Part shown: piece after piece, positions 1 to 22,839 of the stretch
Position numbering within the stretch: the first letter of the stretch is position 1
How the letters are laid out: the number at the start of each line of letters is the position of its first letter
Virus record (IMG/VR): IMGVR_UViG_3300046009_012391
Location: 1-22,839 of that record
From: a virus
Length of the DNA: 22,839 nucleotides
Direction: 5' to 3' (one strand)
Program-made: the position numbers and the translations under genes
Notes under the pieces: model-generated
The model's input: the letters and a program-made list of their open reading frames with translations, nothing else
What the model was told of the DNA's origin: nothing
Database searches by the model: none

Positions 1-431
1 TCGTATAGCGTATCCCTCGCAACGCCAATCTCGAGGGCGAACTCTACGACTTCCATTCCCTCCGCGCCAAGCTCTAGCACGCGATCGCACATAGCCGGCG
101 AGTAGAGGGTAGGGCGGCCAGGCTTGCGCTTGACCTTAGCGCGGAGCGACGGCCTTACGCGATCGGCTTCCTTATCAACCTGGCACTCCCATCGCGCGCG
201 ATCGTCTAATAGCCGTTCCTCCGCCAGCTCCCGGCGGGAGGGCGTCCTTTTGGCTTTATAGGTTTGTTTGGTCGCGCTGGCCGAACTTGCGGCCTGGTCC
301 GGGGAGGGCGGGCGGGAGGGCGATTGTCCCTCCCCGGACTTGGCCGCTGGCGCTTTTGCGCGCGGACTAACGGGAGGCTTGCGCGTCCCGCTTTCTTTTG
401 GGCGTTTAGCCCTTGTCTTTTTCTCCGCCAT
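1..431 (-). CDS. Terminase small subunit-like protein (3' end cut by window edge)
   Basis: This reading frame starts at an ATG at 431 and stays open to position 1, giving about 143 residues with the C-terminus outside the window. Residues 1-95 are a low-complexity, Lys/Arg/Pro/Ala-rich segment followed by a charged helix. From about residue 106 there is a GRPTLYSPAMCDRVLELGAE segment continuing into a helix-turn-helix ending near ARDTLY. That layout (GRP-x-x-Y-x-P, helix, then I-G-V-x-R-D-T-L-Y) is the N-terminal DNA-binding signature I know from many phage small terminases, which recognise packaging sites and recruit the large subunit. I infer that role from this motif only; another HTH family sharing the GRP-x-Y start is possible. 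The basic N-terminal extension is longer than usual. It follows the 174-aa membrane protein after 61 nt. The ribosome-binding site is weak. Confidence 0.6.
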   Translation of the reverse strand, partial: MAEKKTRAKRPKESGTRKPPVSPRAKAPAAKSGEGQSPSRPPSPDQAASSASATKQTYKAKRTPSRRELAEERLLDDRARWECQVDKEADRVRPSLRAKVKRKPGRPTLYSPAMCDRVLELGAEGMEVVEFALEIGVARDTLY

Positions 432-492
432 GACACGCCCGCTTAGGTATTCCTTAAGCGTCTATCATGCCGGACGTAAGTAAACGCCCTGT

Positions 493-1017: not shown

Positions 1018-1057
1018 GTTGAAACTCCACACCTAGCGCGGCCAATACAAATGGACC

Positions 1058-1618: not shown

Positions 1619-1787
1619 AGCGGGTCCGGCCTTTAACGGCCAGCTCACGGATCATAATGGCGCGGACTTCGCGCGGGAACTCCGCGCCAGTGCGTTCCTC
1701 TACACGGCGGACGAAATCCGCCGCCTCCGCTACTTCGCGCGCGGCGAACGCGGTTGTCAGGCGATCGAGGATACCCTTGATATTCAT
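1608..1787 (-). CDS. Small helical protein, unknown
   Basis: A 59-residue protein starting at ATG 1787, five nt after the stop of the 126-aa gene, with GGGGTGAG as a plausible ribosome-binding site. A longer frame from 1853 would run far into the upstream gene and is less likely. The sequence is predicted mostly helical with alternating charge (for example AAREVAEAADFVRRVEERTG). I see no metal motif, signal peptide or membrane segment. It overlaps the next gene by 11 nt, suggesting translational coupling with the DnaA-IV-like protein. I do not recognise the family. Confidence 0.65.
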   Translation of the reverse strand: MNIKGILDRLTTAFAAREVAEAADFVRRVEERTGAEFPREVRAIMIRELAVKGRTRYVA

Positions 1788-1791
1788 AGTC

Positions 1792-2172
1792 TCACCCCAC
1801 GGCGCGCAGTAGCGCGCGTTCAGAAGCCACAGCAGGCAACCCGCCATCATCATCCGGCGGCGGTTCCACGTCGCAACCGAAGCGTTCCGTTAAATAGGCC
1901 AGCACGCGGAGGCGTCCGTCCTCGCTCAGCGCGGAGAGGGAACGCACGCCGGCGGCGATCGCCTCTAACTCCGGGTCGCCGGTTGCCTCCGGCGGCGACG
2001 CTGGCGGCGGAGGTTGCGGACCTGGCGCTTCGTCCTTTTCCGGAACCTCGAGCGCCTTGATTGCCGCCTGGTAGTCAGGGTGCGCCGTGCATTTATGCCT
2101 TTCGTGGCCGCACGCCGGCCAAGGCCCCAGGCAACGCGCGACGGGTCCAAAGTCCGAGAGCTTCATAAGCAC
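1792..2172 (-). CDS. Protein with Cys/His cluster and proline-rich linker, unknown
   Basis: A 126-residue protein. The N-terminal 35 residues hold three Cys and two to three His (CLGPWPACGHERHKCTAH), a pattern that could bind one zinc ion. This is followed by an acidic, Pro-rich linker (about 45-65) and a helical C-terminal part ending in a Pro/Asp stretch. The GTG at 2172 has GGGG 6 nt upstream; an ATG two codons later is the alternative. It sits 10 nt downstream of the GapR-like gene and 5 nt before the 59-aa gene. No family recognised. A small zinc-binding adaptor is a reasonable guess only. Confidence 0.65.
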   Translation of the reverse strand: MLMKLSDFGPVARCLGPWPACGHERHKCTAHPDYQAAIKALEVPEKDEAPGPQPPPPASPPEATGDPELEAIAAGVRSLSALSEDGRLRVLAYLTERFGCDVEPPPDDDGGLPAVASERALLRAVG

Positions 2173-2182
2173 GGCGCGCCCC

Positions 2183-2485
2183 TTACAGTGCGGAAACGGC
2201 GGCGCGGAGCCGGCCTATGGAAGCCTCGATTGCTTCCGCGTACAGGTCGCGGATTGCGTAAGCGGTCGCGCGTTCCTCCGGATCGACCTTGCGCTCCCGG
2301 ATAATCGCGCGGAGCGCCTTAACATCGAACCCAAGCGCCTTGGCTTCCGCATAGACTTCCTTAATATCGGCGGCCTTCTCCGCCTTTTCTTCCTCGAGGC
2401 GTTCAATCCTCGAGACTAATTGCGCCAGCTTTTCAGCCGTCGCGCTTGTGATTACTTGGCTTGGCCCCGCTCTATTCTCGCTCAT
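2183..2485 (-). CDS. GapR-like (DUF2312) nucleoid-associated protein
   Basis: A 100-residue protein matching the DUF2312/GapR pattern: a helix with SRIERLEEEKAEKAADIKEV, then YAEAKALGFDVKALRAIIRE-RK and a basic segment, near the usual family length. In Caulobacter and relatives GapR is a small dimeric/tetrameric alpha-helical protein that encircles and stabilises overtwisted DNA ahead of forks and RNA polymerase and aids topoisomerases. The match covers residues about 15-75; the N-terminal 12 residues and the C-terminal helix are less typical. ATG 2485 has a strong GGGAG 7 nt upstream. The family is mainly alphaproteobacterial, which points to the host group. I infer a role in phage genome topology or in competing with host GapR. 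Confidence 0.85.
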   Translation of the reverse strand: MSENRAGPSQVITSATAEKLAQLVSRIERLEEEKAEKAADIKEVYAEAKALGFDVKALRAIIRERKVDPEERATAYAIRDLYAEAIEASIGRLRAAVSAL

Positions 2486-2515
2486 TACTTGCTCCCGCCT
2501 AAAATACCTATCCGA

Positions 2516-2752
2516 TTACGAAACGTGCGCGCGAACGCCGGCGTCCTTAGCTTCCAGCAGTTTGCGAAGCGCCACGGTACGCTCCGCGTTGCGCGGCGTA
2601 GTCGTGATGATAAGGCGCGCCAGGTCACAGAACGGCTTGGAGCGCGCTTGCAGCGCCGGCGGAAGGTGCGCGTAGTGGAAATAGCGCAGGATCGCGTCCG
2701 CCGCGATTTCGTCCGCCGTGAACTCTACCGGCGCAGGGTGAATATCTGACAT
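2516..2752 (-). CDS. Acb2/Tad1-hairpin family protein (candidate cyclic-nucleotide sponge, anti-CBASS/anti-Thoeris)
   Basis: A 78-residue protein with a short N-terminal tail and a helical hairpin from about residue 22. The signature F-H-Y-x-H-L-P-P-x-L-Q-x-x-S-x-P-F, then LARLI, P-R-N-x-E-R-T-V-A-L-R-K-L-L-E-A-K-D matches what I recall of the Acb2/Tad1 hairpin family. Characterised members are small oligomeric phage proteins that bind cyclic di- or trinucleotides, or cyclic ADP-ribose-type signals, and so block CBASS or Thoeris effectors. The length fits the family. The start at ATG 2752 has AAAGG 7 nt upstream. It lies between DUF3310 and GapR-like genes in the leftward early block. Ligand choice cannot be told from sequence, and many homologues are untested. 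Confidence 0.75.
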   Translation of the reverse strand: MSDIHPAPVEFTADEIAADAILRYFHYAHLPPALQARSKPFCDLARLIITTTPRNAERTVALRKLLEAKDAGVRAHVS

Positions 2753-2806
2753 AAGAAAGCCTTTCGGTTTGGTTGCGTATAAGTTTAATTATGAGAAATC
2801 AGCCAC

Positions 2807-3229
2807 TTAATCAAAGTCCGGATCATTCTCCGCGATTGCGCGCAGCACGTTGACGGCGCGAATTGCGTACTCGAGCGCAGCGCTATCGTTTGGGAATAGG
2901 TGCGCCGTCCAGATCGCGGAAAGCGCCTCCGCTTGGTTGCGGTCCGGCGTATGGTTGATTACGCGGCGCATCGCGCAGGGAACGCCGGCGGGAACGTGCG
3001 GCGCAAACTGGAGCGCCAGCTCCGCGCGGCGTTCCTGTTCCTCATTCAGAAACCAGGCGGCCTTGCGTAGCTCTTGCCGGGGATCGTCCTTAAGGCCGCA
3101 GCGCCACACATACTGGAGCGCTTGCGCCAGGCAGCAATTCATATCGCGGGCGATCGTGATACACTCGACGCCGGACGGGTGCGAAAGGTAATGCGACGGG
3201 TTTACCGCCGCTTCAATATCATCGTGCAT
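2807..3229 (-). CDS. DUF3310 (SaV-like) protein
   Basis: A 140-residue protein whose first 60 residues carry the DUF3310 pattern: N-P-S-H-Y near residue 10, then SGVECITIARDMNCCLAQAL, Q-Y-V-W-R-C-G-L-K and LRKAAWFLNEE. DUF3310 proteins are frequent in phage replication/nucleotide-metabolism regions; their biochemical role is not settled and 'nucleotide kinase' labels are, to my knowledge, weakly based. The C-terminal half (HTPDRNQAEALSAIW onward) is an extra helical domain. Start ATG 3229 has GAGG 6 nt upstream and overlaps the stop of the preceding gene by 11 nt; the upstream frame to 3256 lacks a site. Early-block position fits a replication-accessory role. Confidence 0.8.
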   Translation of the reverse strand: MHDDIEAAVNPSHYLSHPSGVECITIARDMNCCLAQALQYVWRCGLKDDPRQELRKAAWFLNEEQERRAELALQFAPHVPAGVPCAMRRVINHTPDRNQAEALSAIWTAHLFPNDSAALEYAIRAVNVLRAIAENDPDFD

Positions 3230-3446
3230 TGCCAACCTCGAGGCGGTCCGGTTCAATAAACGTAAGGGGGCGGCCTGGCCGATCGACTAATTCGACTTCC
3301 GCTAGGATGCGGATGCCGCCGCGAACCTGGCGGATTAGCCGGACGCGCTCGAGGCGGTCCAAGGCGTAGTGTTTGCCGTCATGCGCCAGGACCGTAGTAA
3401 TCCGGCGAACGTAGCCGATTGACGCGACAAGCTCCCCGGTTTCCAT
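3219..3446 (-). CDS. Small beta-rich protein, unknown
   Basis: A 75-residue protein beginning METGELVASIGYVRRITTVL, with alternating hydrophobic/charged residues suggesting a small beta-barrel-like fold. ATG 3446 has a strong GGAGGG 5 nt upstream. Its stop overlaps the DUF3310 start, so the two are probably translationally coupled. No membrane segment, Cys cluster or known motif is visible. I do not recognise a family. Confidence 0.7.
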   Translation of the reverse strand: METGELVASIGYVRRITTVLAHDGKHYALDRLERVRLIRQVRGGIRILAEVELVDRPGRPLTFIEPDRLEVGNAR

Positions 3447-3494
3447 TTCGTCCCTCCAATGGAAAAGTAATACCGGCTAATCGTTTCGCTAAGC

Positions 3495-4745
3495 CTACCG
3501 CGCGCGCGGCTTGCTCGAGCGCTTGGCGTAGGACGTGAGCGGAGCGCGGCCTGGCCGCTTCGCCGGCTTGGCCTTGGCTTTAGCCTTGGCCTTTGCCGGC
3601 GCGCGGCGCGCCTTGCGATCGGCTGGAATAGACGCCGCCCATTCGGCGCGCCTGGCGTCCAGCTCCCGCTTACCGGCCTCGACGGAAAAGCGAACCGTGA
3701 CGAACTCTACCGGATTGTCCGCGTAGCGCGGATCAATGATAGCAACCATCGACCGCGCCCAATTGCTCCAGCGAAACCCCTTCTCCGCCGCGTAGCGATC
3801 GAAGTCCTTATAGGTTCCTACGCGGATACCTTGGCAAAGGCGGCGCGGATCATTGTGCCAATACGGAATGTAGCCGCTATGGTGGCGATCGCCGCAGGCC
3901 ATAATATGATCGCGGTAGCCAAACAGCGTTTCACGCACCAGGCCATGCGCCGGATTGAATTGAGACTGTCCGGGGAAATCATGGCGGACGTGGACTTTGA
4001 CTTGCTCCGCGCATCCGGGGAGGTTCAGGCCAAGCCGGTAGGAAGGCGCGCCATATTCGCCGGCCAGCTTGGTAAGGCGGGCGATAAAGTCCAGCGGATC
4101 GCCGCCGCCCGTATGCCAGGCGTCATGGTTGCCGCCAACCGCCGCGATCATCTTAGGTCCGAGGCGCGCGAACAGCCATTCAATCAGAACCAAGGCGTCC
4201 TTTCGCGTGACTTCATGGTCAGCGTAAAGCTCCGTCAGGCGGCCAATCCAATTGTTCCGGTAATCCCCGATCGGAATAGCGAACATGCCGGCGGTATCCG
4301 CGATCCGCTCTACATCGTCGCGCAGCTCACCCCAGGCGCAACCCGGATCATCCACATGGGGATCGCCAATAAAGGCTATCCCGATCGGCCCATGCTCGAG
4401 AATGTTTACGGGGATCAGCGGGCGCTCCGCCTTTTCCCGTTTCTTATGGCGCGCGGCCAGCGTTTCGATTAGCGCGGCGGCGTCCGTAGGTTCCTCCGCG
4501 CCGCGCTCGAGCTGGAATAAAGCGCCCTCTTGCAACAGGTCCGGAAAGCGTTTCTTGATTTGCGTGTAGCGGTGACTAACCGTCGCGCGCGTTAGCTTCA
4601 ATTTTCCGGCGGCGTACTCCAGCGCGGACCGCGCGCCCTTCTCCGAGGTTTGCTCGAAAGGGAGGCGGTAGCCGCGCCGGCGGCCATCCTCAATTATAGC
4701 GATCGTCTTTTCCGCCTGTTTCCTACTAAGTGGGCGAGCGGACAT
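3495..4745 (-). CDS. HTH-domain calcineurin-like metallophosphoesterase
   Basis: A 416-residue protein. Residues about 35-65 form a helix-turn-helix (ALEYAAGKLKLTRATVSHRY). Residues 120-300 carry the metallophosphoesterase ligands: GDPH (D128, H130), G-D at 160-161, G-N-H-D at 205-208, H255, and G-D-R-H-H at 285-289. These are the five conserved blocks of a dinuclear-metal phosphoesterase, with the last block GDxHH in place of the common GHxH. The C-terminal 40 residues are a Lys/Ala/Arg tail with alternating K-A dipeptides, histone-like and probably DNA-binding. The same HTH-phosphoesterase pairing is known in other tailed phages; I infer DNA-directed nuclease or phosphatase action. ATG 4745 has AGGA 9 nt upstream, just after a palindrome. 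Confidence 0.85.
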   Translation of the reverse strand: MSARPLSRKQAEKTIAIIEDGRRRGYRLPFEQTSEKGARSALEYAAGKLKLTRATVSHRYTQIKKRFPDLLQEGALFQLERGAEEPTDAAALIETLAARHKKREKAERPLIPVNILEHGPIGIAFIGDPHVDDPGCAWGELRDDVERIADTAGMFAIPIGDYRNNWIGRLTELYADHEVTRKDALVLIEWLFARLGPKMIAAVGGNHDAWHTGGGDPLDFIARLTKLAGEYGAPSYRLGLNLPGCAEQVKVHVRHDFPGQSQFNPAHGLVRETLFGYRDHIMACGDRHHSGYIPYWHNDPRRLCQGIRVGTYKDFDRYAAEKGFRWSNWARSMVAIIDPRYADNPVEFVTVRFSVEAGKRELDARRAEWAASIPADRKARRAPAKAKAKAKAKPAKRPGRAPLTSYAKRSSKPRAR

Positions 4746-4759
4746 AGAACAAATCCTAA

Positions 4760-4771
4760 CTAATTGATTAG
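4760..4771. promoter_or_regulatory. Palindrome upstream of the phosphoesterase gene
   Basis: CTAATTGATTAG is a perfect inverted repeat of 5+5 bases around TG, 14 bases upstream of the phosphoesterase start, in an AT-rich patch of an otherwise GC-rich sequence. It could be an operator overlapping a promoter. No cognate regulator is identified. Confidence 0.35.
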
Positions 4772-4861
4772 CCGCCCTCTTTATCTCGCAATCATCTTTC
4801 GATTGCGTGTCCGCAACATAAACAAAAAGCGAACGCTTCGCGCCGCCGGCTAGTCTCGCGC

Positions 4862-4884
4862 GGGCTTTTTCAAAGCCCCTTTTC
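4862..4884 (+). terminator. Hairpin with U-rich tail, rightward orientation
   Basis: GGGCTTT and AAAGCCC (7 bp) surround a TTC loop and are followed by CTTTT on the plus strand, the form of an intrinsic terminator for rightward transcription. No gene lies upstream on that strand, so it may end an antisense or short RNA from the 4746-4860 stretch, or it may be only a structural element. Read leftward it has no T run. Confidence 0.35.
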
Positions 4885-4972
4885 GGCCCTTACGGGTCAT
4901 ATACACCCCCGTATCCGGTGCAGCGGCCCCTATATGGCCCGTTCGCTCCATGCGCCGCGCGCGCCGCGTCTA

Positions 4973-4997
4973 GCGCCCTCACACAAAACGAGGGCGC
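4973..4997. repeat. Perfect 8-bp inverted repeat
   Basis: GCGCCCTC and GAGGGCGC flank a 9-nt AC-rich loop. On the leftward transcript it lies about 40 nt after the Rep-like stop codon and would form a stable hairpin, without a T run. It may be a factor-assisted terminator, processing site or origin element. Confidence 0.45.
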
Positions 4998-5018
4998 GGA
5001 GGCGATAGCCGCCGCGCG

Positions 5019-5040
5019 GTAGGGTGCGTTAGCGCCCTAC
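5019..5040. repeat. Hairpin overlapping the Rep-like stop codon
   Basis: GTAGGGTGC and GCGCCCTAC can pair over 9 positions (one wobble) around a GTTA loop. The right arm covers the stop codon of the leftward Rep-like gene at 5037-5039. The CGCCCT core is shared with the neighbouring repeat at 4973-4980, so the two may be related elements. Confidence 0.4.
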
Positions 5041-5732
5041 TCCGCAATTCCCTTCTTAGATAAATAAACCCCTTGGGTTTCTGACCGCTGGCCGGTTTCA
5101 CGTTTAGAAACCGCAGAACCGAGGCGTTGCAACGCTTGAAAGAGCGGCGAACCATCGAAGTCCCAGGCGTCCGCCTGGCGGCGCTTGGCTTCCTGGCGCG
5201 CTTCCTCATCTAGCGGCAGCGGCGGAGCGACAGCGTACACGCCTAGCAGGCGCGCCACGCACGCCGGCATACAGAAGCGAAAGGCGTTCGAGGTTTGCTT
5301 GACTTGCGGTCCGCGCTCACCTGGCCGCGCGTCCGGTTCATAGCGGCGTATCCAATCGACAAAGCCGGCGGCGCGCAAACGCTTGAACGCCTCGACTACG
5401 GCGGACCTCGAGCGGCGTATCCGCATAGCGATACCGGAATAGCAGGGGTCCAGGCGGCCAGTTTTGAAATCGACCAGGCGCGCCAGCTCCCGTAATACCT
5501 CGAGCGCCACATAGCCTAGCGGTCCGTTCCGCGCGCCGCTTTGCCTTCCGGTTAGCTCGAGGCGTTCCGCCGCGCGGATCAAAACCCGTAAGTCCGCCGG
5601 ACGGATCGCACGCCAGAACGTCCCTTCCGATCCTTTACGCCTACTCGAGCGGCGCACGCCGGCGCGGCGCGGATTAGGCGGCGCGCTGGCCGTCGCGCGA
5701 TCTAGCAGTAAGTCCAGGTTTTGATACGCCAT
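5037..5732 (-). CDS. Replication-initiator-like winged-helix protein
   Basis: A 231-residue protein. Residues 1-45 are basic and Ala/Arg-rich. Residues about 70-152 form a winged helix: PLGYVALEVLRELARLVDF, T-G-R-L-D-P-C-Y-S-G-I-A, a recognition helix R-R-S-R-S-A-V-V-E-A-F-K-R-L, then A-A-G-F-V-D-W-I-R-R-Y and K-Q-T-S-N-A-F-R-F. The phrases 'TGRLDP-Y', 'LR-AGF-DW-RRY' and 'QTSNA-RF' match what I recall of Rep-like HTH proteins on alphaproteobacterial plasmids and phages. I therefore infer a replication initiator or closely related regulator, binding the repeat-rich DNA directly downstream. The start is ATG 5732 with a weak GGGATA upstream. The C-terminal 60 residues are charged and probably disordered. 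Alternative: transcriptional regulator of the block. Confidence 0.6.
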   Translation of the reverse strand: MAYQNLDLLLDRATASAPPNPRRAGVRRSSRRKGSEGTFWRAIRPADLRVLIRAAERLELTGRQSGARNGPLGYVALEVLRELARLVDFKTGRLDPCYSGIAMRIRRSRSAVVEAFKRLRAAGFVDWIRRYEPDARPGERGPQVKQTSNAFRFCMPACVARLLGVYAVAPPLPLDEEARQEAKRRQADAWDFDGSPLFQALQRLGSAVSKRETGQRSETQGVYLSKKGIAE

Positions 5733-5788
5733 TATCCCGTTTCCACATCATCTAGCGGATGCGGAGCGCCAGGACAGCCGGTCGCGTC

Positions 5789-5809
5789 CTCGAAAGCGGA
5801 GCTTTCAAG
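5789..5809 (-). repeat. Hairpin in the Rep-like gene leader
   Basis: GAAAGC and GCTTTC form a perfect 6-bp inverted repeat around a 3-nt loop; on the leftward RNA it extends to 9 pairs with one G-U. It sits about 60 nt upstream of the Rep-like start and could be an operator or a leader structure controlling initiator synthesis. Function not shown. Confidence 0.4.
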
Positions 5810-5882
5810 TTGACGCGCCGGCGGATTTATGTTGTAAACGGGAGCCGCCAAGCACCCCTAACAACGTCCGTCCGCCCTAGCG

Positions 5883-5900
5883 CCCCGCCATCCGGCGGGG
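5883..5900. terminator. GC hairpin with ATCC loop between membrane peptide and Rep-like gene
   Basis: CCCCGCC and GGCGGGG pair perfectly over 7 bp around ATCC. There is no long T run on either strand (TTATC on the plus side). It belongs to a set of three similar hairpins with WTCC loops in this window (also 7180-7205 and 8143-8172). It may separate the tRNA/peptide transcript from the Rep-like gene. Confidence 0.4.
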
Positions 5901-5946
5901 TTATCATTCGCGCCGGCAGTAAACACGCCAGCAGATTGCGCCAGGC

Positions 5947-6051
5947 TTAACGCGGGAACCCGCGCAAGCTGGAAAACGCAATAACGCACACAATCGCGAA
6001 CAGCGCCGCCGGCGCAAGCTCACGCGCAACGCCCAAAATCATATCAAGCAT
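5947..6051 (-). CDS. 34-residue single-span membrane peptide
   Basis: A short leftward frame encoding 34 residues: M-L-D-M-I-L-G-V-A-R-E-L, then a hydrophobic core PAALFAIVCVIAFSSL and a basic R-G-F-P-R end. ATG 6051 has a very good GGGAGG about 9 nt upstream, which is the main reason for calling it. One membrane helix with a cytoplasmic-type basic tail fits a toxin-like, holin-accessory or regulatory small membrane protein. It lies 58 nt downstream of the initiator tRNA gene on the same strand and may share its transcript. No family can be assigned. Confidence 0.55.
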   Translation of the reverse strand: MLDMILGVARELAPAALFAIVCVIAFSSLRGFPR

Positions 6052-6109
6052 AGAACCCGCCTCCCAACGGGTAGGCCGTTATGCCTGCGAAATGTAAAGA
6101 AAAGCCCCT

Positions 6110-6185
6110 TGGTAGCGGGAGCGGGGATCGAACCCGCGACCTCCCGGTTATGAGCCGGACGAGCTGACCGCTGCTCCATCCCGCA
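6110..6185 (-). tRNA. Initiator tRNA-fMet (CAT), complete with encoded CCA
   Basis: A 76-nt cloverleaf on the minus strand: acceptor TGCGGGA/TCCCGCT, D arm GAGC/GCTC with an AGCGGTCA loop, anticodon arm TCCGG-CTCATAA-CCGGG, T arm GCGGG-TTCGATC-CCCGC, discriminator A and encoded CCA. Two initiator hallmarks are present: an unpaired 1:72 position (T-T) and A11:U24 in the D stem. The loop CTCATAA is the usual initiator loop. The third hallmark, three G-C pairs 29-31/39-41 written GGG/CCC, is altered: position 29 is C and 41 is G, and 27:43 is a U-G wobble. All tertiary positions I checked (U8, G15-C48, GG in D loop, T54-T55-C56, A58) are kept, so the gene looks functional. Confidence 0.93.
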
Positions 6186-6259
6186 CCAATGGGGCGCTAG
6201 TTTCGGTGAAGGCCGGCGCGGCGTCCGGGTAGGAAAACGCCGCGCCTGTATCCCGCACC
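6178..6259. repeat. 10-bp direct repeat of the tRNA 5' end
   Basis: ATCCCGCACC occurs at 6178-6187 (the 5' end of the tRNA plus its leader, seen on the plus strand) and again at 6250-6259. The two copies flank the 6215-6246 inverted repeat. The second copy may be a remnant of a partial tRNA duplication or of an exchange event at the tRNA, or it may be chance. Confidence 0.4.
6215..6246. repeat. Perfect 10-bp GC inverted repeat upstream of the tRNA
   Basis: GGCGCGGCGT and ACGCCGCGCC flank a 12-nt spacer. It lies between the tRNA gene and the divergent control region. No T run follows on either strand. It could insulate the two divergent transcripts or fold in the tRNA leader. Confidence 0.5.
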
Positions 6260-6315
6260 CATCCACTCTCACAAGCGGCAGAGCTAGAAAATGCGCGCCA
6301 GGGGTTACGCTTTTC

Positions 6316-10150: not shown

Positions 10151-10879
10151 ATGTCTTTAATCCCGCCGCGCGTCGCGTGCCTTTCCCAAAAAGGCGGCGG
10201 CGGCAAAACTACGCTTGCAACCAACCTGGCCGTAGCGGCGGCCAGGGCAGGCGTGCGAACCCTGTTGCTAGACCTCGACGCGCAGCAATCCAGCGCGCGC
10301 GCATGGGGAACCTGGCGCGCCTCGAGGCGGCCTAAGCCTGGCCTTCCACTGACCATAACGCCGGTTGCGTGGGACGATTTAGAGGCGGCGCTTAAGGGCG
10401 CGGCCAAGGCCAAGCACCAGCTAATAATCCTGGACACGCCAGGCCAGAAGGGGGCGGTTTCTAACTACGCCGCGTCCGTATCGAATATCGTTCTAGTGAC
10501 CGTCCAGCCGTCAATGCTTGACCTGGCGACGATCACGGAAACGCTGGCGCTAAACAACGTCGCCAATAGGCCGGCGTTCGTTTTCTTCAACCGCGTTCCG
10601 GATCGCGCCGCGCTTAAGGAAGCAACGGACGTTGTAAGCGGTCGCGGTATCCGCGTCGCGCCGGTCGCGTTGTCAAACCTCAGAGCCTACCAGGACGCCG
10701 CCGGCGAGGGTCTAGGCGTTCTCGAGCTGGAGCTAGAGCCTGGCGCTACCAAGGCCGCCAGCGCCGAACTAGCGAAGGCGAGGGGCGAGGTAGAGGCGGC
10801 GCTCGCATGGGTGCGCGAACGCCTGGCGGACTATCCCAAAGCCAAAGGCCAGCACGTTGACCAATGGGGGCGGCCATGA
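10151..10879 (+). CDS. parA: ParA-family partition ATPase
   Basis: A 242-residue ATPase of the ParA/MinD family, near the size of short (type Ib) ParA proteins. Residues 14-21 are the deviant Walker A KGGGGKTT with the signature Lys14; residues 38-43 give the A' box L-L-L-D-L-D; residues 91-98 give Walker B LIILDTPG. There is no N-terminal HTH extension, which in type Ia ParA makes the operator contact, so regulation probably depends on the RHH partner encoded next. ParA binds nucleoid DNA in the ATP state and moves plasmid cargo through its centromere-binding partner. ATG 10151 has GGAGGG 4 nt upstream. The next gene overlaps its stop by 4 nt. Confidence 0.93.
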   Translation: MSLIPPRVACLSQKGGGGKTTLATNLAVAAARAGVRTLLLDLDAQQSSARAWGTWRASRRPKPGLPLTITPVAWDDLEAALKGAAKAKHQLIILDTPGQKGAVSNYAASVSNIVLVTVQPSMLDLATITETLALNNVANRPAFVFFNRVPDRAALKEATDVVSGRGIRVAPVALSNLRAYQDAAGEGLGVLELELEPGATKAASAELAKARGEVEAALAWVRERLADYPKAKGQHVDQWGRP

Positions 10880-14287: not shown

Positions 14288-17200
14288 TTAGGTCCGGTAG
14301 CCGATAAGAATAACTTTCAAGCCCTTCGCGCCGGTTCCGGCTACGTCAATGTCAATCGTCATTTCCGCATCATCGGCCAGCGTGGCGTCCGAGATAACCG
14401 CAGCGGTCGCCGCCGTTGTGCTAGTTTTTTCGCTGGCGTCGATTGTGAGCTTAGTAGAGAGGATCGAAACGCCGCCTTCGTTTATGTCAACTGTAGGAAT
14501 ACCGGAGCTGGACACGGTATTGAGCGACGCGCGAACCGCCGTAAGCGTGAAGGCGTAGGGCATCCGGAATGTAACTTTCGCGGTTCCGGTTGTGATCGCG
14601 GTACTTTCGTCGCTAACCGCAATCGTGATCGCCTCTTGAACCTTGATATTTTTAAGCAGAACTTTTTTCAGCGCGGCGGCGGAGGCATCCCACACCAGCG
14701 CGAAGTCCGCGTTAGGGTCCGGCGCGGTGTCCTCTGTCCGGCCAGTGATCGCCGCCGGCTGAATAGTCGTCGCGACAGCGCCGGCGGAGGTTGTAATATC
14801 GCCCGTCAACGCCGGCATACGCGCGGCTAGTAGCGTTCCGCTATTGAGGTTCCCGGCGTTGCCGGCGGCCAGGACTGTTGTATTGCTATCCGCCGCCCTG
14901 GTAACATCGCCCGTATAAGCGAAGGGGAGGGCGGCGAGGACTTCGACGTTGCCGGTTGCAGCGGTGGCGCGGCCCAGTATGCTATCCGTCGCCATCGTCG
15001 CCATTTTCGCAAGCGTGACCGCGTTAGCGGCGATCGTGGTTGCGTTGCTCCCCGCCGAAGCCGTCACGTCGCCGGTAAGCGCCGATCGCTGAATACCGCC
15101 GGTTCCGGTGAACTCAATACCGCCGCCAACCGTAAGCGCTTCCTCGCTACCCGTCGCCGCCGTGTCGCGGCCTACCAGGCGATCGGTTGCGATTTGCGCG
15201 CGCTTCGCGAACGTGACCGCGTTAGCGGCGATCGTGGTAGCAACAGCGCCGGCGGAGGTTGTCACGTCGCCAGTAAGCGCCGGCATCCGCGCGGCGGGTA
15301 GCGTTCCGGCGTTCAGGTTCGCGGCGCTCAAATAGTAGGCGCTCGATTGTCCGTCCAGCAAATCAGCGTCCAGGCCGGAGGCCGCGCCGTCAACCGTGAG
15401 CAGCTTCGCGAGAACGTCCGCCGCCGTGTAGGTCGCGGAATTGAGCGGCGTATAACCAAGCGCCGTTGCGACGTTCATGGTAAGAACGCCAGCGACAAAG
15501 CTAAGGCCGGTTCCTAGTGAGGCTTCCTCTACATCGCCAGCCCCGGCAGTAAAGCGCGCCAATATGCGGTTAGTCGCGGTTACGTTTTGGAGCTTGGCGT
15601 ATGTGACCGCATCGTCCGGAATGTTCGCTTTGAGCTGGCCGGCGGTTCCCGTATCCCATGCAAGCGTAGCCGTGTTCGTTACAACGCGCTCCGCCGTCAA
15701 TTCGCTATTGCTTGCGGCGACAATGTATTCCGGCGAATTAGGCGCGGCGGCGATATTGCCGCGCGCCGTAGCAGCAGCGCCGGCCAATTCGGAAAGCGCG
15801 TTCGCTATCAGCATATCGCCAGAACCCGCGCCGGCGGGTCCGGTGTCGCCGGTGCGCTCGACAATAATACCGAGAATGTCCGACGCGCTAAAGCTCCCGG
15901 CGTGCGTGACATAGCTAACCGGAACCTTGCGATACGCGCCGGCGTCCGTCATCGCCCCGTTAATTGCGTACATTGCGAAATTGCCAGGCGCGGCGCGCTT
16001 TTTCAGCGTGATAAAGGCGCGCGTCGCGGAAGTGCTATCATCCCAGGTCGCGATAGCGGCGGCGACGGCAGCGCCAAGGCTATCCGTCTCGGAGACATAG
16101 AGGAACGTGGCGCTCGAGAGCGTGGCGTTATTGGCGCGGATTTCGCCCGCGCCAGGATCGGCGTCCGTTGTTCCGGTATCCCAGGCGAACGTATAGCCGG
16201 AAATGGCTTGTTCGATCGTCGCTTCCGCCGCTTCCGCGTTCGCTTGCGCGGTTTGTGCGGCGGTCGCCGCCGTGCTGGCCGTGCTAGCGCTAGTCGCCGC
16301 AGCGGACGCGGACGTAGAGGCGTTGCCGGCTTGCGTGGTCGCGATACCGGCTTGCGTCGTCGCCGTGCTGGCGCTGGCGGCGGCGGCGATCCTATCCGCG
16401 TCCGCGTCCGAGGCGGAGGTTGCGGCGTTGCCGGCGGAAGTGGCGGCGTTCCCGGCTTGCGTAGTCGCTATGCCGGCCTGCGTCGTCGCCGTGCTAGCGG
16501 ACGTGCTGGCCGCGCTGGCGCTCGAGGATGCGGCAGAGGCTTGCGTGCTGGCCGTGCTGGCGCTAGCGGCGGCGGCGTCCGCGCTGGCGGCGGCGCTATC
16601 CGCCTCGTTCGAAGCGGTTGTGGCATGGCCGGAGGCCGTAGTTACATGGCCGGCGGCGGTTGTCACATGGCCGGCGGCGGTGGCGGCGGAGGCCGCAGCG
16701 GCGACAGCGGACGCGGCAGCGGCGGTTGCTTGCGCTTCCGCATCCAGGATAACCGCCAGGTTCGCGTAGAGCGCGGAGATTTCAGTGTCCAGCGCGCCGA
16801 GCGTTTCGATTTCGTCCGCGATCGCCGCGACGGCAGCAACGTCCGTTGCGGTTAGGGTGTATTCCAGCGCGCCGGTTGTGGCGTGGAAAGATAGAACCTT
16901 TCCCTTCCGTTCCTGGACGCTAACCGGATTGACGGTTTCCCCGATCGTTCCCCGGAAACTACGGCGCGCTTCCTCCCGGACCTCGAGGACGTGCATTGCC
17001 AGGCGATCGACCATCCCCATAACAACGGACGGGTAGAACGGACCGCTATCCGTCAACGCTACTAGCTGCGTCATGGCGGACTTGCGGCGCGCCCATCCGG
17101 TAGAGCCGGAGGCCGGCGCAACCGAGAACGTCACGTTCCCGCCGCCGGCGTCGCCTACGCCGCTAACCGTGTAATCGCTCGAGCTGACAACCGTTAGAGC

Positions 17201-17332
17201 GCCCGTAGTGGCGTCATATTTAACGAACTCCAGGTCCGAGCTTTGCAGGATGCGGAACCCGTAGGCAAATACGGTTGTAACGCCGTTTAGCGTGTAGGGT
17301 CCGCTTACGGTTGTCTCGCTTGCTACAGTCAT
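14288..17332 (-). CDS. Tail fibre protein with T7 gp17-type N-terminus
   Basis: About 1014 residues from ATG 17332, preferred because GGAG lies 10 nt upstream and the protein then opens M-T-V-A-S-E-T-T-V-S-G-P-Y-T-L-N-G; an ATG at 17374 adds 14 residues. The N-terminal ~150 residues match the T7 tail-fibre anchoring pattern (FAYGFRILQSSDLEFVKY ... GPFYPSVVMGMVDRLAMHVL-EVREEARR). Next comes a ~180-residue Ala/Ser/Thr repeat region with ATTQAG and TTASGH units, a trimeric shaft. The distal part has fibre repeats such as LDADLLDGQSSAYYLSAANL and PALTGDVTTSAGAVATTI copied two or three times. The C-terminal ~120 residues (VTFRMPYAFTLTAVRASLNT ... VDINEGGVSILSTKLTIDAS) match a domain found at the ends of many phage fibres, probably the receptor-binding tip. 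Confidence 0.88.
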   Translation of the reverse strand: MTVASETTVSGPYTLNGVTTVFAYGFRILQSSDLEFVKYDATTGALTVVSSSDYTVSGVGDAGGGNVTFSVAPASGSTGWARRKSAMTQLVALTDSGPFYPSVVMGMVDRLAMHVLEVREEARRSFRGTIGETVNPVSVQERKGKVLSFHATTGALEYTLTATDVAAVAAIADEIETLGALDTEISALYANLAVILDAEAQATAAAASAVAAAASAATAAGHVTTAAGHVTTASGHATTASNEADSAAASADAAAASASTASTQASAASSSASAASTSASTATTQAGIATTQAGNAATSAGNAATSASDADADRIAAAASASTATTQAGIATTQAGNASTSASAAATSASTASTAATAAQTAQANAEAAEATIEQAISGYTFAWDTGTTDADPGAGEIRANNATLSSATFLYVSETDSLGAAVAAAIATWDDSTSATRAFITLKKRAAPGNFAMYAINGAMTDAGAYRKVPVSYVTHAGSFSASDILGIIVERTGDTGPAGAGSGDMLIANALSELAGAAATARGNIAAAPNSPEYIVAASNSELTAERVVTNTATLAWDTGTAGQLKANIPDDAVTYAKLQNVTATNRILARFTAGAGDVEEASLGTGLSFVAGVLTMNVATALGYTPLNSATYTAADVLAKLLTVDGAASGLDADLLDGQSSAYYLSAANLNAGTLPAARMPALTGDVTTSAGAVATTIAANAVTFAKRAQIATDRLVGRDTAATGSEEALTVGGGIEFTGTGGIQRSALTGDVTASAGSNATTIAANAVTLAKMATMATDSILGRATAATGNVEVLAALPFAYTGDVTRAADSNTTVLAAGNAGNLNSGTLLAARMPALTGDITTSAGAVATTIQPAAITGRTEDTAPDPNADFALVWDASAAALKKVLLKNIKVQEAITIAVSDESTAITTGTAKVTFRMPYAFTLTAVRASLNTVSSSGIPTVDINEGGVSILSTKLTIDASEKTSTTAATAAVISDATLADDAEMTIDIDVAGTGAKGLKVILIGYRT
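16624..16686. repeat. 21-bp tandem repeat in the tail fibre shaft
   Basis: Three adjacent 21-bp units starting CATGGCCGG (16624, 16645, 16666) encode 7-residue repeats G-H-V/A-T-T-A-A/S. They lie in the Ala/Thr shaft and are a likely site for slippage and shaft-length variation. Confidence 0.7.
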
Positions 17333-17397
17333 TTGCGCGGCGCTCCGGATTAGAAGGCCACTAAAGCAGCCCATACCGGGGAGGGGGGCGGTTGCCG

Positions 17398-17658
17398 CTA
17401 GACTAGGTTCGTATCAAAGCCGCCGCCGCCTCCGCCGCCGCCGCCCGTCCAGGGAGGATCGCCGCCGCCGCCGCTGGCGGCGCTGGCCGCCGAGGCGACG
17501 CCTGGCCGGCGGGCAGGGTCAACGTCGCGGCTGGAGTGTTCCGTAAGCGACTTCTCCGAACGCCGGCCAGGCTTGAATTGCTGGATCGTCGCCGCCGCCA
17601 GGATCACGGTTCGCGCGTCGCGTTGCGCGCGTTTCGGCGGACGCTTGGCCCCGACCAT
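17398..17658 (-). CDS. Small protein with polyglycine tail, unknown
   Basis: An 86-residue protein whose ATG overlaps the stop of the polyvalent protein gene by one nt (TAATG), with GAGGGA 9 nt upstream. It has a basic N-terminus (VGAKRPPKRAQRDARTVIL) and a Gly-rich end with nine Gly in a row encoded by a GCC/GCG microsatellite on the plus strand. Gly-rich small proteins between internal-virion and fibre genes are common in podovirus-like late regions, but I cannot assign a function. Confidence 0.65.
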   Translation of the reverse strand: MVGAKRPPKRAQRDARTVILAAATIQQFKPGRRSEKSLTEHSSRDVDPARRPGVASAASAASGGGGDPPWTGGGGGGGGGFDTNLV

Positions 17659-20600
17659 TAGCGGGTATCCCTCAATAGCCCTTCACTGTAGATCGAACCC
17701 GGATCGCGAACTGGGTTTTCCTGGCCTTCCACAATGTCAATTGCATAGTCGCCAGTAATGTAGAGCTGGCGCGCCGGGAAACCGATTAGATAGCCGGCGG
17801 ACATAAAGGCGTGTTTGACGGTTCCGTCGCCTAGGTCGCCGGTAACAATGTCCTGGCCGACGCCAGTAACAGCCTCACCGATCGCACCCGCCGGCGACAA
17901 TTCATAGCCGTAGGGCGAGATTATCCCGCTCATTACATCGCGAACGCCGGGAACCGTCATAAGCGGGTAGGCGAGCGTTTGCTTCGCCAGGTTCGCCAAT
18001 TCATCCTCCGGCGGTTCGTCGCCTACGCGGCCTTGGAGTATTTCCGCCAGGACAACCGGGAGGAACCAAAGAGCCATCATATTGATAGCGAATTGCGCCG
18101 GCGAGATTTTGCCGCCGGCCAGGCCGGGGATTTGCTCGACGTAGAATTGATTATAGAGCGTGGAGAAATACGTCATAAACTTAGTAAAGAGGCGCATAGC
18201 GCCGCGCTGGCGCATAAGCGCGGACGTGTCCTTTAGTGAGCCGGAGCCTTGCGTCATGCGAACAATACTGTCCGCGTACTGAATAGCCGCGTCCTCTACG
18301 CGCGGGTCCGTTGTGGAGATATTCGCCACACGTCCGGCCATCGCCTCGTTATAGGCCGCTAGCCAGATCGGGATTGATACGCCCATATCCATAGTCGCGG
18401 TCGCCCAAAAGAACGTCCGCCGGATATTCGCCGGGATCGGATCGCCTTTCGCGCGGCCAGCAACCGTAACCATCGCGTCGCGAACGTCGCGATCGTAAGT
18501 ATCAATGCGGTGACGCATCGCGGAGGAACGGCTAACAACGAACTGGAACGCGGCGGCCAGGCGATCCGGACGCCAATAGAGGCGCGAGACTTGACGCCAG
18601 ATCGGCCCCGCGCCGATACGCGGGATAGCGCCCAGGATACCAAGCGGTTGAACGATCGCGGTAGAAACCTTCCAGCCCATCGCCACAACGGAGACGTTGT
18701 TCGAGAGGTTCGTAAGGAGGTTTTCCAGGAAGCCATGCGGCGTTTTAGGTTTAGCCGCAATGTCCTTTAGCCAAGGCTTGATTTGCCGGAACAGATTACG
18801 GCCAACCGCGCCGATAATCGCCGCCTGGATTGCTGGCCTTTCGATCAAACGGCCAGCGTCTAGGATTGCTTCCTCGAACGCTACGAAATGGATTACTTCC
18901 TGGACGTGTTCCTGGAGAACGGACAAGTCCAGGCGGATCAATTGATCGCCCGCGCCGGTGCGCTCGACAAGCATACCCTTCCGCGTTTGCGCGCGGATCA
19001 TGTTTGGGTGCGTTTCTTGCGTGGTTTCTACCTGTTGCCGATCGTGCGTTTTTTCCGTCTTACTCGGATTGTATTTGACCGGATAATATCCGCCCTTCCA
19101 CACTTGGCCCGCCGCCGTAAAGGACTTCGCCTCTACAGCTCGAGGGCGGACGCCGGTTAGGCGTTCATGCAGCGAAAAGGACGGTTCGCGGTATTCCTCG
19201 AGCCAATCCCAAATCCCTTGCACCAGGCGCAAGTCCCGAACGTCCATTCGGTCCAGGATGCCTTGAAGCTGCGTTTCGGTCCAGCCGTAGCCCTCGAGCA
19301 TCACGCGGCGGGAATATTCGTTCCCCGAATTAAGCGCGATCGCGATAACTTGCGCGCGCGTCAACCGCTCCCCGATTTCCGTAAACATGCTCTTTTTCGA
19401 GAACATTTCTTCGCGCTCTTTCGCGGTGAACGCGGCAAATAACTGTTGCGTCCGCTCCGCCGCCAGGCGTTGCATTTCCAATTCAGCCGCTTCCGCTTCC
19501 GCGATCGGGCGGAACAAGTGACGCCATACCGGCCCGTTATCTTTCAGCCCGTCCAGAAGGCGGAACATAAACTCCATTTTGACGTTTTCGGCGTGGAGCC
19601 GTTCGAGGCTAGCCTTGCTTTCCTCTACTTGGTTATCTTCCTCGAGCCGGAGACGGTTTTTCGCGTCAACGTGTTCCAACCCGTTCGCGTGAATAGAAGC
19701 GACAATTTCGCTTTCCACGTCCGCGATGCGCTGGCGCTCCCGCTTGATAAGCAAACCTTGCTTGAGCTGGCCCAGGTGGCGGAGATTGCGGATAGTATCG
19801 TAAAGCCCTTCCGCTTCATCGAACGTAAGCCGGCTAAATGGCCGGCGTTGCGCGCGCTCTATCAGCCGTTCGTCTATCGCCAGCAGATTATCCAGGCCGC
19901 GCTTTTCCATCATGCGGACGTAGCTAACAAGCGCGTCGCGGCGCGCTTCCTCGCGAAGCGAAATGCGGCGTAACTCGAATTGCTCTAGCAGCGCGTCGAT
20001 TTGCGTAAGGTGTCCAGGGTCAATGTGCTGGCGGACGTTGCGCGAATTGAAGCTCTGAAAGAGCCTTTGCATTTTCTCGACTTCCGCGTGAGCGTCGCGC
20101 ATTTCCGCCCACAAATGGAACGCGATCAATTGCGCGTTTTTCTCGAGGCTAGCCGTAGCTAGGTCGCCGGCGCGCATTGCCGCCGCCGCCGCTTTCCCAT
20201 GCTTGCGCTCTTGCCCGAGGACGCGGTTAAACGTGGAGAGCTGGCGGACCGTCATACGCTGGACGCGCTCTTGCGCCAGCTTACGCGCGGCCTTGGCGAT
20301 CGCCTTAGCGTTGCCGGACGTGGCGCGCGAGACAATCTCTAACTCCAGCTCGAGGACGCGGCTATGCTTCGCGCGGTGCGCCGCCTCTTGCGCCGCCGTT
20401 TCCATTGTCCCGTCCTGGAACGGATCGCCGTACAGCTCGCGAACCTTTTTCGCGGCCAGGCGTTCGACTAGCTTACGGCGCGGTCCGAGCGCGGCCAGCA
20501 TACGCAACAGCTCCGCGCCGTCCTTTATGCCAAACGCTTGCGCGATTTCGTCCGGATGCAGCGCGTTAGGGTTCCCGGCTTGCGATTGCGCCTTTACCCA

Positions 20601-22839
20601 ATTTGTAATTTGCTTCCGCAATTCCGCCGCCGGCGCGTTTATATCAATCCCTCGAGCGCCAAACCAATAGCCCGCTTCGCGTTGCGCGTCCGAGGCCCAC
20701 ACGTCCTCTAAGTCCTCGACTTTATAGACGGGTTCGCCGCGCAGATCGTCCGCCAAGGCGTCCAGGAATTGCCGCGTAGTCGGGCGATCGACGCTATCCG
20801 ACGAATAGTAGATACGCGCCACTTGCAGGGGAGGGCGAGCGTCCAGCTTTGCGCCGTCGATTACGTCCGCCGATCGGCTAGCGTCCGTCGCCGGCGTTTG
20901 GCCGATCACCAGGCCGGTTATGTCCGCCTTCTTGATATTGACTAGCTTAAGCGTTCCCGTCGCGATCGCCTCATACACGCCCGTTTGGTGGCGGTGCATC
21001 ATCGCGTAGTAGAGGTATGACGGGTCAATCGCATCCGTAGCGGTGACGCGAACGCCGAAATGCTCCGGGTTATATTCGCGCGTGACGCTTCCAACCGTTT
21101 TGGCCGAGCCGCGACGAACAATATAAAAGTCCGCGTCCGGGTCGCCAATCTTTACCGATACAGCCTGGCCGAGCTTCACAAGCTCACCAGGCGTTGCCGG
21201 CGTTATGCGGATATTCTCTAGCCGCGCGTCCGTCCGAACTTGAACCTCCGGCGCGGTTTGATAGTAGGTAGGTCCGTCGCCGTAATTCCCCTTAGTGGGT
21301 TTCGCGCCGAAATAGCCGGCTTCCCACGCGAACAACGCCGCATCATCTAGGGACATTCCGCTAGAATTATTGATTAGGCCAGGCCGCGCGCGGTGCGATC
21401 CAAGTATAGACAGCACGTCGCCGCCAGGATCGCGGATACCGCCGCGCTGGACCAGGAAGGATGCGAGCCGGCGCGGCGCGTTGCGCTGGACATTTGCCTT
21501 ACGCGCCTCGCGCGCCTGGCGGTAGAGCGCGTCAACGTCCGCCTCCGAGACTTGCCGCAGCTCCGGCGGCAATTCGTCCAGCATCAAGCCGCCATCATCG
21601 TAAGTATCAAGCACAGCTTGGAAATTGATTTCCATAGGCGCAAGGCCCGCCGGCGGCGGAACGAAACCCCAATCCGGATCAACGTCCTCGCCGTTCGACT
21701 TCTTAGGCTTTTTAATATCGCCGCGATATTGCTGATACGCCAGCCAATCGAACGCGCGCCGCGCCGGCGACGTATCAACCTCGCGCATTGCTTCGCGGCG
21801 CGCCTTGCCGAGCTGGCGGTTCCACCATGCCGTCTGTTGCCGAAAGTAGGCGTCCATTGCGACGGCGGTTAGTGAGGCTTCCGCATCGTTCCGCGCATCA
21901 TCTACCTTTTGCCGATAGGATGCGAACTCCGCGTCCGTCAGGCCAAGGGATTGCGCGGTTTGCAGATCAGCGAACAGCGGAACGGTTGCGCCGGACGCTT
22001 CGCGCGCGCGGAGGATTTCCGCCTCAGAAGCAAACAGCCGATCAAAAACGTAAGTTATTTCCGGGTTCAGTTTGTGGTCTAGCTTTATGCGCTCATACAG
22101 GCGCGTAAGCCATTTCTGGAACAGCGCGAACGCGCGCGTAAGCGATATGTTCGGAGCCTGGCCGTTGCGGAGATACGCCTCGAACGTCCGCGCGAACAAT
22201 TCATGGTGCGCGACTTCGAACGCTTCGCCTGGCTCGATTTCCAGCCAGGCCGCCGTCCGGAGCCACAAGTCCTTAGAGGCTTCCGTTGCATTGGCGCGCG
22301 TGCCGAACTCGCGGATAATCTCGAGAAAGATATGGCCGCTTTCATGCAGGAACGTAGAGAAGTTAGCCGCCTCAGTAAGCCGGACGGTTGCGCTAACTAT
22401 GCGGCCATTGACTTCCGCGAACTCCGTTGCGCCGCGTACAATTTCGCCGCCTTGTTCGTCAACGCCCGTAGCTTGATAGGTCCGAATAGGCATCGCGCCT
22501 TGTTCGTCCGGGAACACAACGTAGGCGGCCAGGTCCGACGCTTCCGCCGTTTCCATTGGCGACGTATTGACATAGCGCAGACCTACATAGCCTTGAGCGC
22601 GCCAGAGCTTGCGCGCTTCGCGAACCATGCGCGCGCGGTCCTCGTTATTGTATGGACGCCCGCCGTAATTCTGTAGGAACTCCATAAGGTCATAGGCGCG
22701 GCCATGCCCTTCGTGCGGCATAGCGACGGTTTCGCCGCGCGCCAACGCCTCCGCCATTGCCGCCGCCGCCTCCGGCTCGACGTTGCGCGCTTGGATTAGG
22801 TAGTCGCGCAGCATGGCGGGATAGGCTGAAGAGACCAGG
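17658..22839 (-). CDS. Large polyvalent (injected/internal virion-type) protein, N-terminus outside the window
   Basis: The frame is open to the right edge; the first Met in the window (22814) has no ribosome-binding site, so the gene is 5'-partial with at least 1726 residues. Numbering from that Met: residues 40-110 end an ADP-ribosyltransferase-like polyvalent domain (GYVGLRYVNTSPMETAEASD). Residues 150-215 contain HESGH (157-161) and a downstream E-L-F-A-R-T-F-E-A-Y-L-R-N-G segment, a zincin-type metallopeptidase. Residues 450-505 hold LVQRGGIRDPGGDVLSILGS...AWEAGYF. Residues 535-640 resemble a type I restriction specificity TRD. Residues 860-1130 are coiled coil. From about 1300 on lies an LPD38-like domain (YADSIVRMTQGSGSLKDTSA; LFTKFMTYFSTLYNQF). 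Such polyvalent proteins are thought to be packaged and injected with the genome. Confidence 0.85.
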   Translation of the reverse strand, partial: LVSSAYPAMLRDYLIQARNVEPEAAAAMAEALARGETVAMPHEGHGRAYDLMEFLQNYGGRPYNNEDRARMVREARKLWRAQGYVGLRYVNTSPMETAEASDLAAYVVFPDEQGAMPIRTYQATGVDEQGGEIVRGATEFAEVNGRIVSATVRLTEAANFSTFLHESGHIFLEIIREFGTRANATEASKDLWLRTAAWLEIEPGEAFEVAHHELFARTFEAYLRNGQAPNISLTRAFALFQKWLTRLYERIKLDHKLNPEITYVFDRLFASEAEILRAREASGATVPLFADLQTAQSLGLTDAEFASYRQKVDDARNDAEASLTAVAMDAYFRQQTAWWNRQLGKARREAMREVDTSPARRAFDWLAYQQYRGDIKKPKKSNGEDVDPDWGFVPPPAGLAPMEINFQAVLDTYDDGGLMLDELPPELRQVSEADVDALYRQAREARKANVQRNAPRRLASFLVQRGGIRDPGGDVLSILGSHRARPGLINNSSGMSLDDAALFAWEAGYFGAKPTKGNYGDGPTYYQTAPEVQVRTDARLENIRITPATPGELVKLGQAVSVKIGDPDADFYIVRRGSAKTVGSVTREYNPEHFGVRVTATDAIDPSYLYYAMMHRHQTGVYEAIATGTLKLVNIKKADITGLVIGQTPATDASRSADVIDGAKLDARPPLQVARIYYSSDSVDRPTTRQFLDALADDLRGEPVYKVEDLEDVWASDAQREAGYWFGARGIDINAPAAELRKQITNWVKAQSQAGNPNALHPDEIAQAFGIKDGAELLRMLAALGPRRKLVERLAAKKVRELYGDPFQDGTMETAAQEAAHRAKHSRVLELELEIVSRATSGNAKAIAKAARKLAQERVQRMTVRQLSTFNRVLGQERKHGKAAAAAMRAGDLATASLEKNAQLIAFHLWAEMRDAHAEVEKMQRLFQSFNSRNVRQHIDPGHLTQIDALLEQFELRRISLREEARRDALVSYVRMMEKRGLDNLLAIDERLIERAQRRPFSRLTFDEAEGLYDTIRNLRHLGQLKQGLLIKRERQRIADVESEIVASIHANGLEHVDAKNRLRLEEDNQVEESKASLERLHAENVKMEFMFRLLDGLKDNGPVWRHLFRPIAEAEAAELEMQRLAAERTQQLFAAFTAKEREEMFSKKSMFTEIGERLTRAQVIAIALNSGNEYSRRVMLEGYGWTETQLQGILDRMDVRDLRLVQGIWDWLEEYREPSFSLHERLTGVRPRAVEAKSFTAAGQVWKGGYYPVKYNPSKTEKTHDRQQVETTQETHPNMIRAQTRKGMLVERTGAGDQLIRLDLSVLQEHVQEVIHFVAFEEAILDAGRLIERPAIQAAIIGAVGRNLFRQIKPWLKDIAAKPKTPHGFLENLLTNLSNNVSVVAMGWKVSTAIVQPLGILGAIPRIGAGPIWRQVSRLYWRPDRLAAAFQFVVSRSSAMRHRIDTYDRDVRDAMVTVAGRAKGDPIPANIRRTFFWATATMDMGVSIPIWLAAYNEAMAGRVANISTTDPRVEDAAIQYADSIVRMTQGSGSLKDTSALMRQRGAMRLFTKFMTYFSTLYNQFYVEQIPGLAGGKISPAQFAINMMALWFLPVVLAEILQGRVGDEPPEDELANLAKQTLAYPLMTVPGVRDVMSGIISPYGYELSPAGAIGEAVTGVGQDIVTGDLGDGTVKHAFMSAGYLIGFPARQLYITGDYAIDIVEGQENPVRDPGSIYSEGLLRDTR

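Follow-up and report, generated by a model that had tools for sequence, protein, structure and literature searches.

We analysed a 22,839-nt stretch of viral DNA, hereafter the window (positions 1 to 22,839 of IMG/VR record IMGVR_UViG_3300046009_012391), a linear fragment with a single tRNA gene, placed in the roughly 700 bp that separate two divergent gene blocks. The following features were assigned.

3..431, minus strand: terminase small subunit, running off the window edge (PHROG 309, E 2.7e-07)
2183..2485, minus strand: GapR-like DNA-binding protein (Pfam PF10073, E 7.8e-25)
5037..5732, minus strand: RepA-like replication protein of alphaproteobacterial plasmids (tblastn)
6096..6109, minus strand: 3' trailer AGGGGC-TTTTCTTT, base-paired jointly with the encoded CCA to the 5' leader, with a U run after it; may be a terminator or mark the end of the tRNA transcript (precursor fold)
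6110..6185, minus strand: initiator tRNA (tRNA-fMet), anticodon CAU, encoded CCA, U1:U72, C29:G41 (ARAGORN, Rfam, numbering, profiles)
6186..6195, minus strand: 5' leader GCCCCATTGG, which pairs with the trailer and CCA (precursor fold)
10151..10879, plus strand: ParA-like partition ATPase (PHROG 164, E 1.9e-30; Pfam AAA_31/CbiA)
14288..17374, minus strand: tail fibre protein (PHROG 1640 and 13893)
17658..22814, minus strand: large virion protein of the BPP-1 / Caulobacter Jess A / Cobetia Carin1 podovirus type, at the window edge (tblastn; PHROG 9880, E 2.9e-253)

The window thus combines phage genes (terminase small subunit, tail fibre, large virion protein) with RepA-like and ParA-like genes. 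The virion genes are about 30-35% identical to those of BPP-1, Caulobacter phage Jess A and Cobetia phage Carin1. The RepA-like gene, which lies downstream of the tRNA at a distance of 377 bp and shares its strand, encodes a protein without a Pfam or PHROG match that recovered 197 plasmid records by tblastn, with at most 49% identity to proteins of Shinella, Rhizobium and Agrobacterium annotated as 'replication protein A' or HTH proteins. The ParA-like ATPase additionally matched the NCBIfam model ParA_partition with an E-value of 1.6e-36, under the curated cut-off. Because RepA-like and ParA-like proteins are present and no integrase was detected among the window ORFs scanned, the window is probably part of a phage-plasmid with BPP-1-type virion genes, and the GapR-like protein, together with the plasmid relatives of the RepA-like protein, points to an alphaproteobacterial host. 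The sole near-identical record is a 7.5-kb fragment (L010) that overlaps positions 1-4943 and ends short of the tRNA. Three other contigs (L002-L004), considered as relatives through the large virion protein, were dropped since the match covered only a stretch of 95 to 105 residues.

ARAGORN, run on the whole window, identified one tRNA, a tRNA-Met(cat) at 6110-6185 on the minus strand, and the Rfam model RF00005 matched it with 60.4 bits (E 4.8e-11). Its minus-strand sequence is 5'-TGCGGGATGGAGCAGCGGTCAGCTCGTCCGGCTCATAACCGGGAGGTCGCGGGTTCGATCCCCGCTCCCGCTACCA-3'. Numbering of this sequence gives an acceptor stem with a U1:U72 mismatch followed by G2:C71, C3:G70 and G4:C69, a 3' end consisting of A73 and a CCA encoded in the gene, and A11:U24 in the D stem. 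The anticodon arm reads UCCGG-CUCAUAA-CCGGG, with the stem pairs U27:G43, C28:G42, C29:G41, G30:C40 and G31:C39. All stems are intact. The stem C29-G30-G31/C39-C40-G41 of the original prediction is therefore confirmed by the numbering, including the departure from the canonical 3GC element that it had claimed: 29:41 is C:G instead of G:C, paired and not mismatched, with 30:40 and 31:39 unchanged.

There is little doubt that this gene encodes a real tRNA and that this tRNA is an initiator, as had been proposed from its 1:72 mismatch and A11:U24. The determinants of formylation listed in PMC7949028 (1:72 mismatch, G2:C71, C3:G70, A11:U24) are every one present. We compared the tRNA with an initiator profile built on 110 distinct phage initiator tRNAs and an elongator profile built on 16 elongator-type tRNA-Met, and obtained 60.7 bits for the former vs 24.7 bits for the latter; the pattern used to gather the initiator set prescribes the anticodon core and some of the D stem, and the profile is biased towards this core, though with so wide a gap and with the 1:72 mismatch the assignment is hardly in doubt. 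As a control, an E. coli tRNA-fMet gene scored 73.1 vs 29.2, and elongators scored the reverse way. An elongator tRNA-Met was rejected on the same profile scores, on A11:U24 and on the unpaired U1:U72. More generally, the pyrimidine 11:purine 24 and paired 1:72 of elongator Met or Ile2 tRNAs are both absent, the elongator score itself coming from a Met profile only. The CAU anticodon, the initiator-type loop CUCAUAA, the lack of a Watson-Crick pair at 1:72, and G30:C40 and G31:C39 are all as in initiators; G29:C41 is replaced by C:G. Since 29:41 is other than G:C in about 72% of the phage initiators sampled and in 69% of those of Patescibacteria, G:C at this position does not define the family, and the window tRNA is classed as an initiator on its remaining sequence features.

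The sequences flanking the gene suggest how its transcript might end. In the predicted precursor fold, the leader GCCCCATTGG pairs with the 3'-end CCAAGGGGC; this lengthens the acceptor stem by nine pairs, interrupted by one bulge, and TTTTCTTT comes after it. A nine-pair leader/trailer stem was matched by 2 of 20,000 random flanks, and the stem and U run may mark where a transcript with this one tRNA stops. In the stretch that separates the tRNA from the divergent genes, GGCGCGGCGT and ACGCCGCGCC can form a hairpin of ten pairs around a 12-nt loop (positions 6215-6246); no U run comes after it, and it is a possible operator or origin element. The 5' end of the tRNA (6168-6190) recurs in degenerate form as a direct repeat, 78% over 23 nt, at 6240-6262, just upstream of the gene; this may be due to chance or be a decayed partial copy.

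Just upstream of the tRNA on its own strand, we found no match to a sigma-70-type promoter, the consensus used being other than alphaproteobacterial. Such a result would fit a passenger gene, picked up by the phage-plasmid, that still resembles an initiator but has little or no expression and no present role, and in which C29:G41 had arisen by drift; the absence of any tRNA in BPP-1 and Jess A and the fact that C29:G41 is the rarest orientation of the pair point the same way. However, drift is expected to break pairs, whereas positions 29 and 41 are paired as C:G and the stems and formylation determinants are intact, and tRNAs of this type are common to independent phages. We regard a functionless passenger as distinctly unlikely.

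tRNA genes are also known as phage integration sites, and in BPP-1 the attP corresponds to the 3' end of a tRNA-His gene, so that the window tRNA might have been copied from a host tRNA-fMet gene as an attachment site, or be host DNA from the edge of a prophage. In contrast to BPP-1, which has both an integrase and this attachment site, the window showed no integrase among the ORFs scanned, and RepA and ParA suggest extrachromosomal upkeep. The tRNA is full length, with its CCA and with phage genes on both sides, instead of a 3' part identical to a host tRNA. Furthermore, it has no close host copy: the stem core AGCTCGTCCGGCTCATAACCGG occurs in 1 of 84,980 species genomes, in a Patescibacteria tRNA that is clearly different elsewhere. 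On these grounds we rejected the attachment-site explanation, the very finding that the original prediction had named as its refutation, as highly improbable.

Initiator tRNAs are common in phages, contrary to the premise that they are rare. A blastn search recovered similar tRNAs in 273 phage records, 231 of which matched over at least 80% of the tRNA length. Seven of the nine phage tRNAs that we read were clear initiators, from phages of Acinetobacter, Gordonia, Rhodobacter, Caulobacter, Erwinia and Mycobacterium and from a Lak phage. The two exceptions were the tRNA of Erwinia phage phiEa21-4, which has an altered loop, and that of Erythrobacter phage R6L, which has C1:A72 but C11:G24. The latter, at positions 300-376 of the R6L stretch examined (L275), is an unannotated initiator-like tRNA which also carries C29:G41 and an A28:A42 mismatch. 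An ARAGORN Met call of 87 nt in Cobetia phage Carin1 was set aside as not initiator-looking. In IMG/VR, a pattern for the initiator core, with 30:40 and 31:39 fixed and 27-29 free, gave at least 120 viral matches; this sample was taken in scan order, may include a few host genes from the edges of prophages, and by its design cannot show changes at 30:40 and 31:39. Among the matches listed, the initiator was the sole tRNA in the stretch examined at 73 of 116 viral loci, and U1:U72 was found in 14 of 101 phage initiators. Published work agrees: nine tRNA-fMet were counted among 25 tRNA genes of Sinorhizobium meliloti prophage-related sequences (PMC11476347) and a huge phage with a tRNA-fMet has been reported (PMC10747093). 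Because many phages have initiators, often as the sole tRNA, and some of these have U1:U72, the form of the window tRNA fits that of a functional phage class.

The pair 29:41 is not conserved in the initiators of phages or Patescibacteria. In the IMG/VR sample, among the matches listed, we counted A:U in 55, G:C in 34, U:A in 30 and a mismatch in one of 120 phage initiators, and position 29 in 85 matches from 192 Patescibacteria genomes was A in 36, G in 26, T in 22 and C in 1. Deviations in this element had also been suggested for some mycoplasmas and rhizobia, and the alphaproteobacterial fMet genes that we read do have A29:U41, the host-side data consisting of the Patescibacteria and a few alphaproteobacterial plasmid copies. 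A change at 29:41, which had been singled out as unusual, is thus ordinary in phages and Patescibacteria, and what is retained of this claim is the C:G orientation, the depleted one. It was found in none of 119 phage initiators (among the matches listed) and 1 of 85 from Patescibacteria, a deficit far beyond chance vs equal use of the four orientations, the sequences being related and not independent draws. The exact stem AGCTCGTCCGGCTCATAACCGG was found in 4 viral contigs, and C29:G41 initiators with 27 and 28 free in 16, several of them duplicates; U29:A41 gave at least 120 viral matches in the single context U27-C28 alone.

The ribosomal contacts of the initiator suggest a reason for this pattern. 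According to PMC11497404, the 16S residue A1339 docks on G30:C40 in an A-minor contact of type I, and G1338 reaches 29:41 in a type II contact that uses the 2'-OH of residue 41; this would explain why 29:41 is tolerant and 30:40 strict. A G at position 41 would push its amino group towards G1338, a possible cause of the rarity of C:G. The mutant data that we found in the literature concern a triple 3GC mutant or C30:G40, and none concern C29:G41. A more far-reaching proposal would be that phages and Patescibacteria can use A:U, G:C and U:A almost interchangeably at 29:41 while C:G is selected against, probably through the G41 amino group at the G1338 docking site, and that C29:G41 phages consequently carry an initiator with an altered P-site grip, a changed start-codon choice or resistance to tRNA-fMet nucleases; we put it forward tentatively, as a rather unlikely whole.

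Resistance to nucleases might also account for the window tRNA by itself, as a decoy or replacement kept because its altered anticodon stem evades those VapC-type toxins that cleave tRNA-fMet where stem and loop meet. Cleavage of tRNA-fMet in its anticodon stem-loop has been described for VapC toxins from several bacteria, among them the alphaproteobacterium Bosea (PMC8522696), escape of phage tRNAs from anticodon nucleases is a published hypothesis (PMC10264068), and the window stem differs from that of alphaproteobacterial host fMet at 29, 41 and 43. Such an escape is plausible. However, the loop CUCAUAA, the site of the cut, is unchanged, the enteric phages examined in PMC10264068 generally avoid tRNA-fMet, and 29:41 is equally variable in Patescibacteria genomes, so that the change need not be a signature of escape. 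As the reason for which the gene is kept, we consider nuclease escape unlikely.

A VapC gene was encountered near an initiator tRNA on a 9.8-kb plasmid of Acinetobacter pittii (L281), where the tRNA at 4982-5058 on the plus strand lies about 0.5 kb from a vapBC pair at 5529-6175 on the minus strand, the VapC being related to the tRNA(fMet)-specific VapC structures 3tnd and 9h6a. No VapC was found near the same initiator tRNA on two other plasmids, and with one such plasmid against two we do not claim a general link between VapC and initiator tRNAs.

The reading that we favour, and hold to be moderately probable, is that of a functional initiator tRNA gene of a phage-plasmid, supplementing or replacing the tRNA-fMet of the host. 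The tRNA would be transcribed towards repA from the region between the divergent gene blocks, and the transcript would be processed to a tRNA carrying its own encoded CCA. This tRNA, which has all the known determinants, would be charged with methionine, then formylated, and used in initiation alongside the host tRNA-fMet. The C29:G41 swap would be tolerated, as A1339 would read an intact G30:C40 and G1338 would touch 29:41 by the 2'-OH of residue 41; C29:G41 being strongly depleted among initiators, the tRNA could nevertheless work less well. Most likely, the gene would enlarge the supply of initiator, or take over from that of the host, while the phage infects or the plasmid is maintained, and its altered stem, unlike that of alphaproteobacterial host fMet at 29, 41 and 43, may additionally be a poorer substrate for anticodon stem-loop nucleases. 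A preference for GTG starts had also been suggested; because the loop and anticodon are standard, nothing in the sequence points to it.

The window adds a likely alphaproteobacterial phage-plasmid bringing its own initiator tRNA. In phages and Patescibacteria, the textbook 3GC rule holds loosely at its first pair, where C:G is the one orientation avoided, and this comparative pattern is the part most worth following. Phage initiator tRNAs constitute a natural set of variants for probing the G1338 contact of 16S rRNA and the reach of tRNA-fMet nucleases.

Judged by its sequence, the window tRNA belongs with the known initiator tRNAs of phages, and its 29:41 pair has a rare orientation. Among named phages, tRNA-fMet often has a pair other than G:C at 29:41 and is sometimes the sole tRNA nearby, as in the window, and tRNA-fMet genes are likewise carried by the prophages of Sinorhizobium meliloti (PMC11476347). 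Caulobacter phage CcrBL9, in which the tRNA-fMet is annotated, Rhodobacter phage RcXuper, Gordonia phage Phendrix and Mycobacterium phage Myrna share with the window tRNA the initiator D stem of the A11:U24 type and the GGCUCAUAACC core, but have A:U or U:A at 29:41 where the window has C:G. The 16 viral contigs with C29:G41 resemble it in keeping 30:40 and 31:39 intact, and several also have U1:U72; they are identical to it at no more than 65 of 73 positions (L006). Host-type tRNA-fMet genes on plasmids of Sphingobium, Roseibium and Limimaricola are 84% identical to it over positions 2 to 76 and have the same core, but differ in having C1:A72, A29:U41, a longer D loop and another T arm. A further likely phage-plasmid is the circular 44.6-kb plasmid of Devosia sp. 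SL43 (L285), whose initiator tRNA at 3980-4056 on the plus strand adjoins HNH endonuclease, terminase and portal genes. Like the window, it is alphaproteobacterial and phage-like and carries an initiator tRNA; its phage type is another one, and its initiator has C1:A72 and A29:U41, whereas that of the window has U1:U72 and C29:G41.
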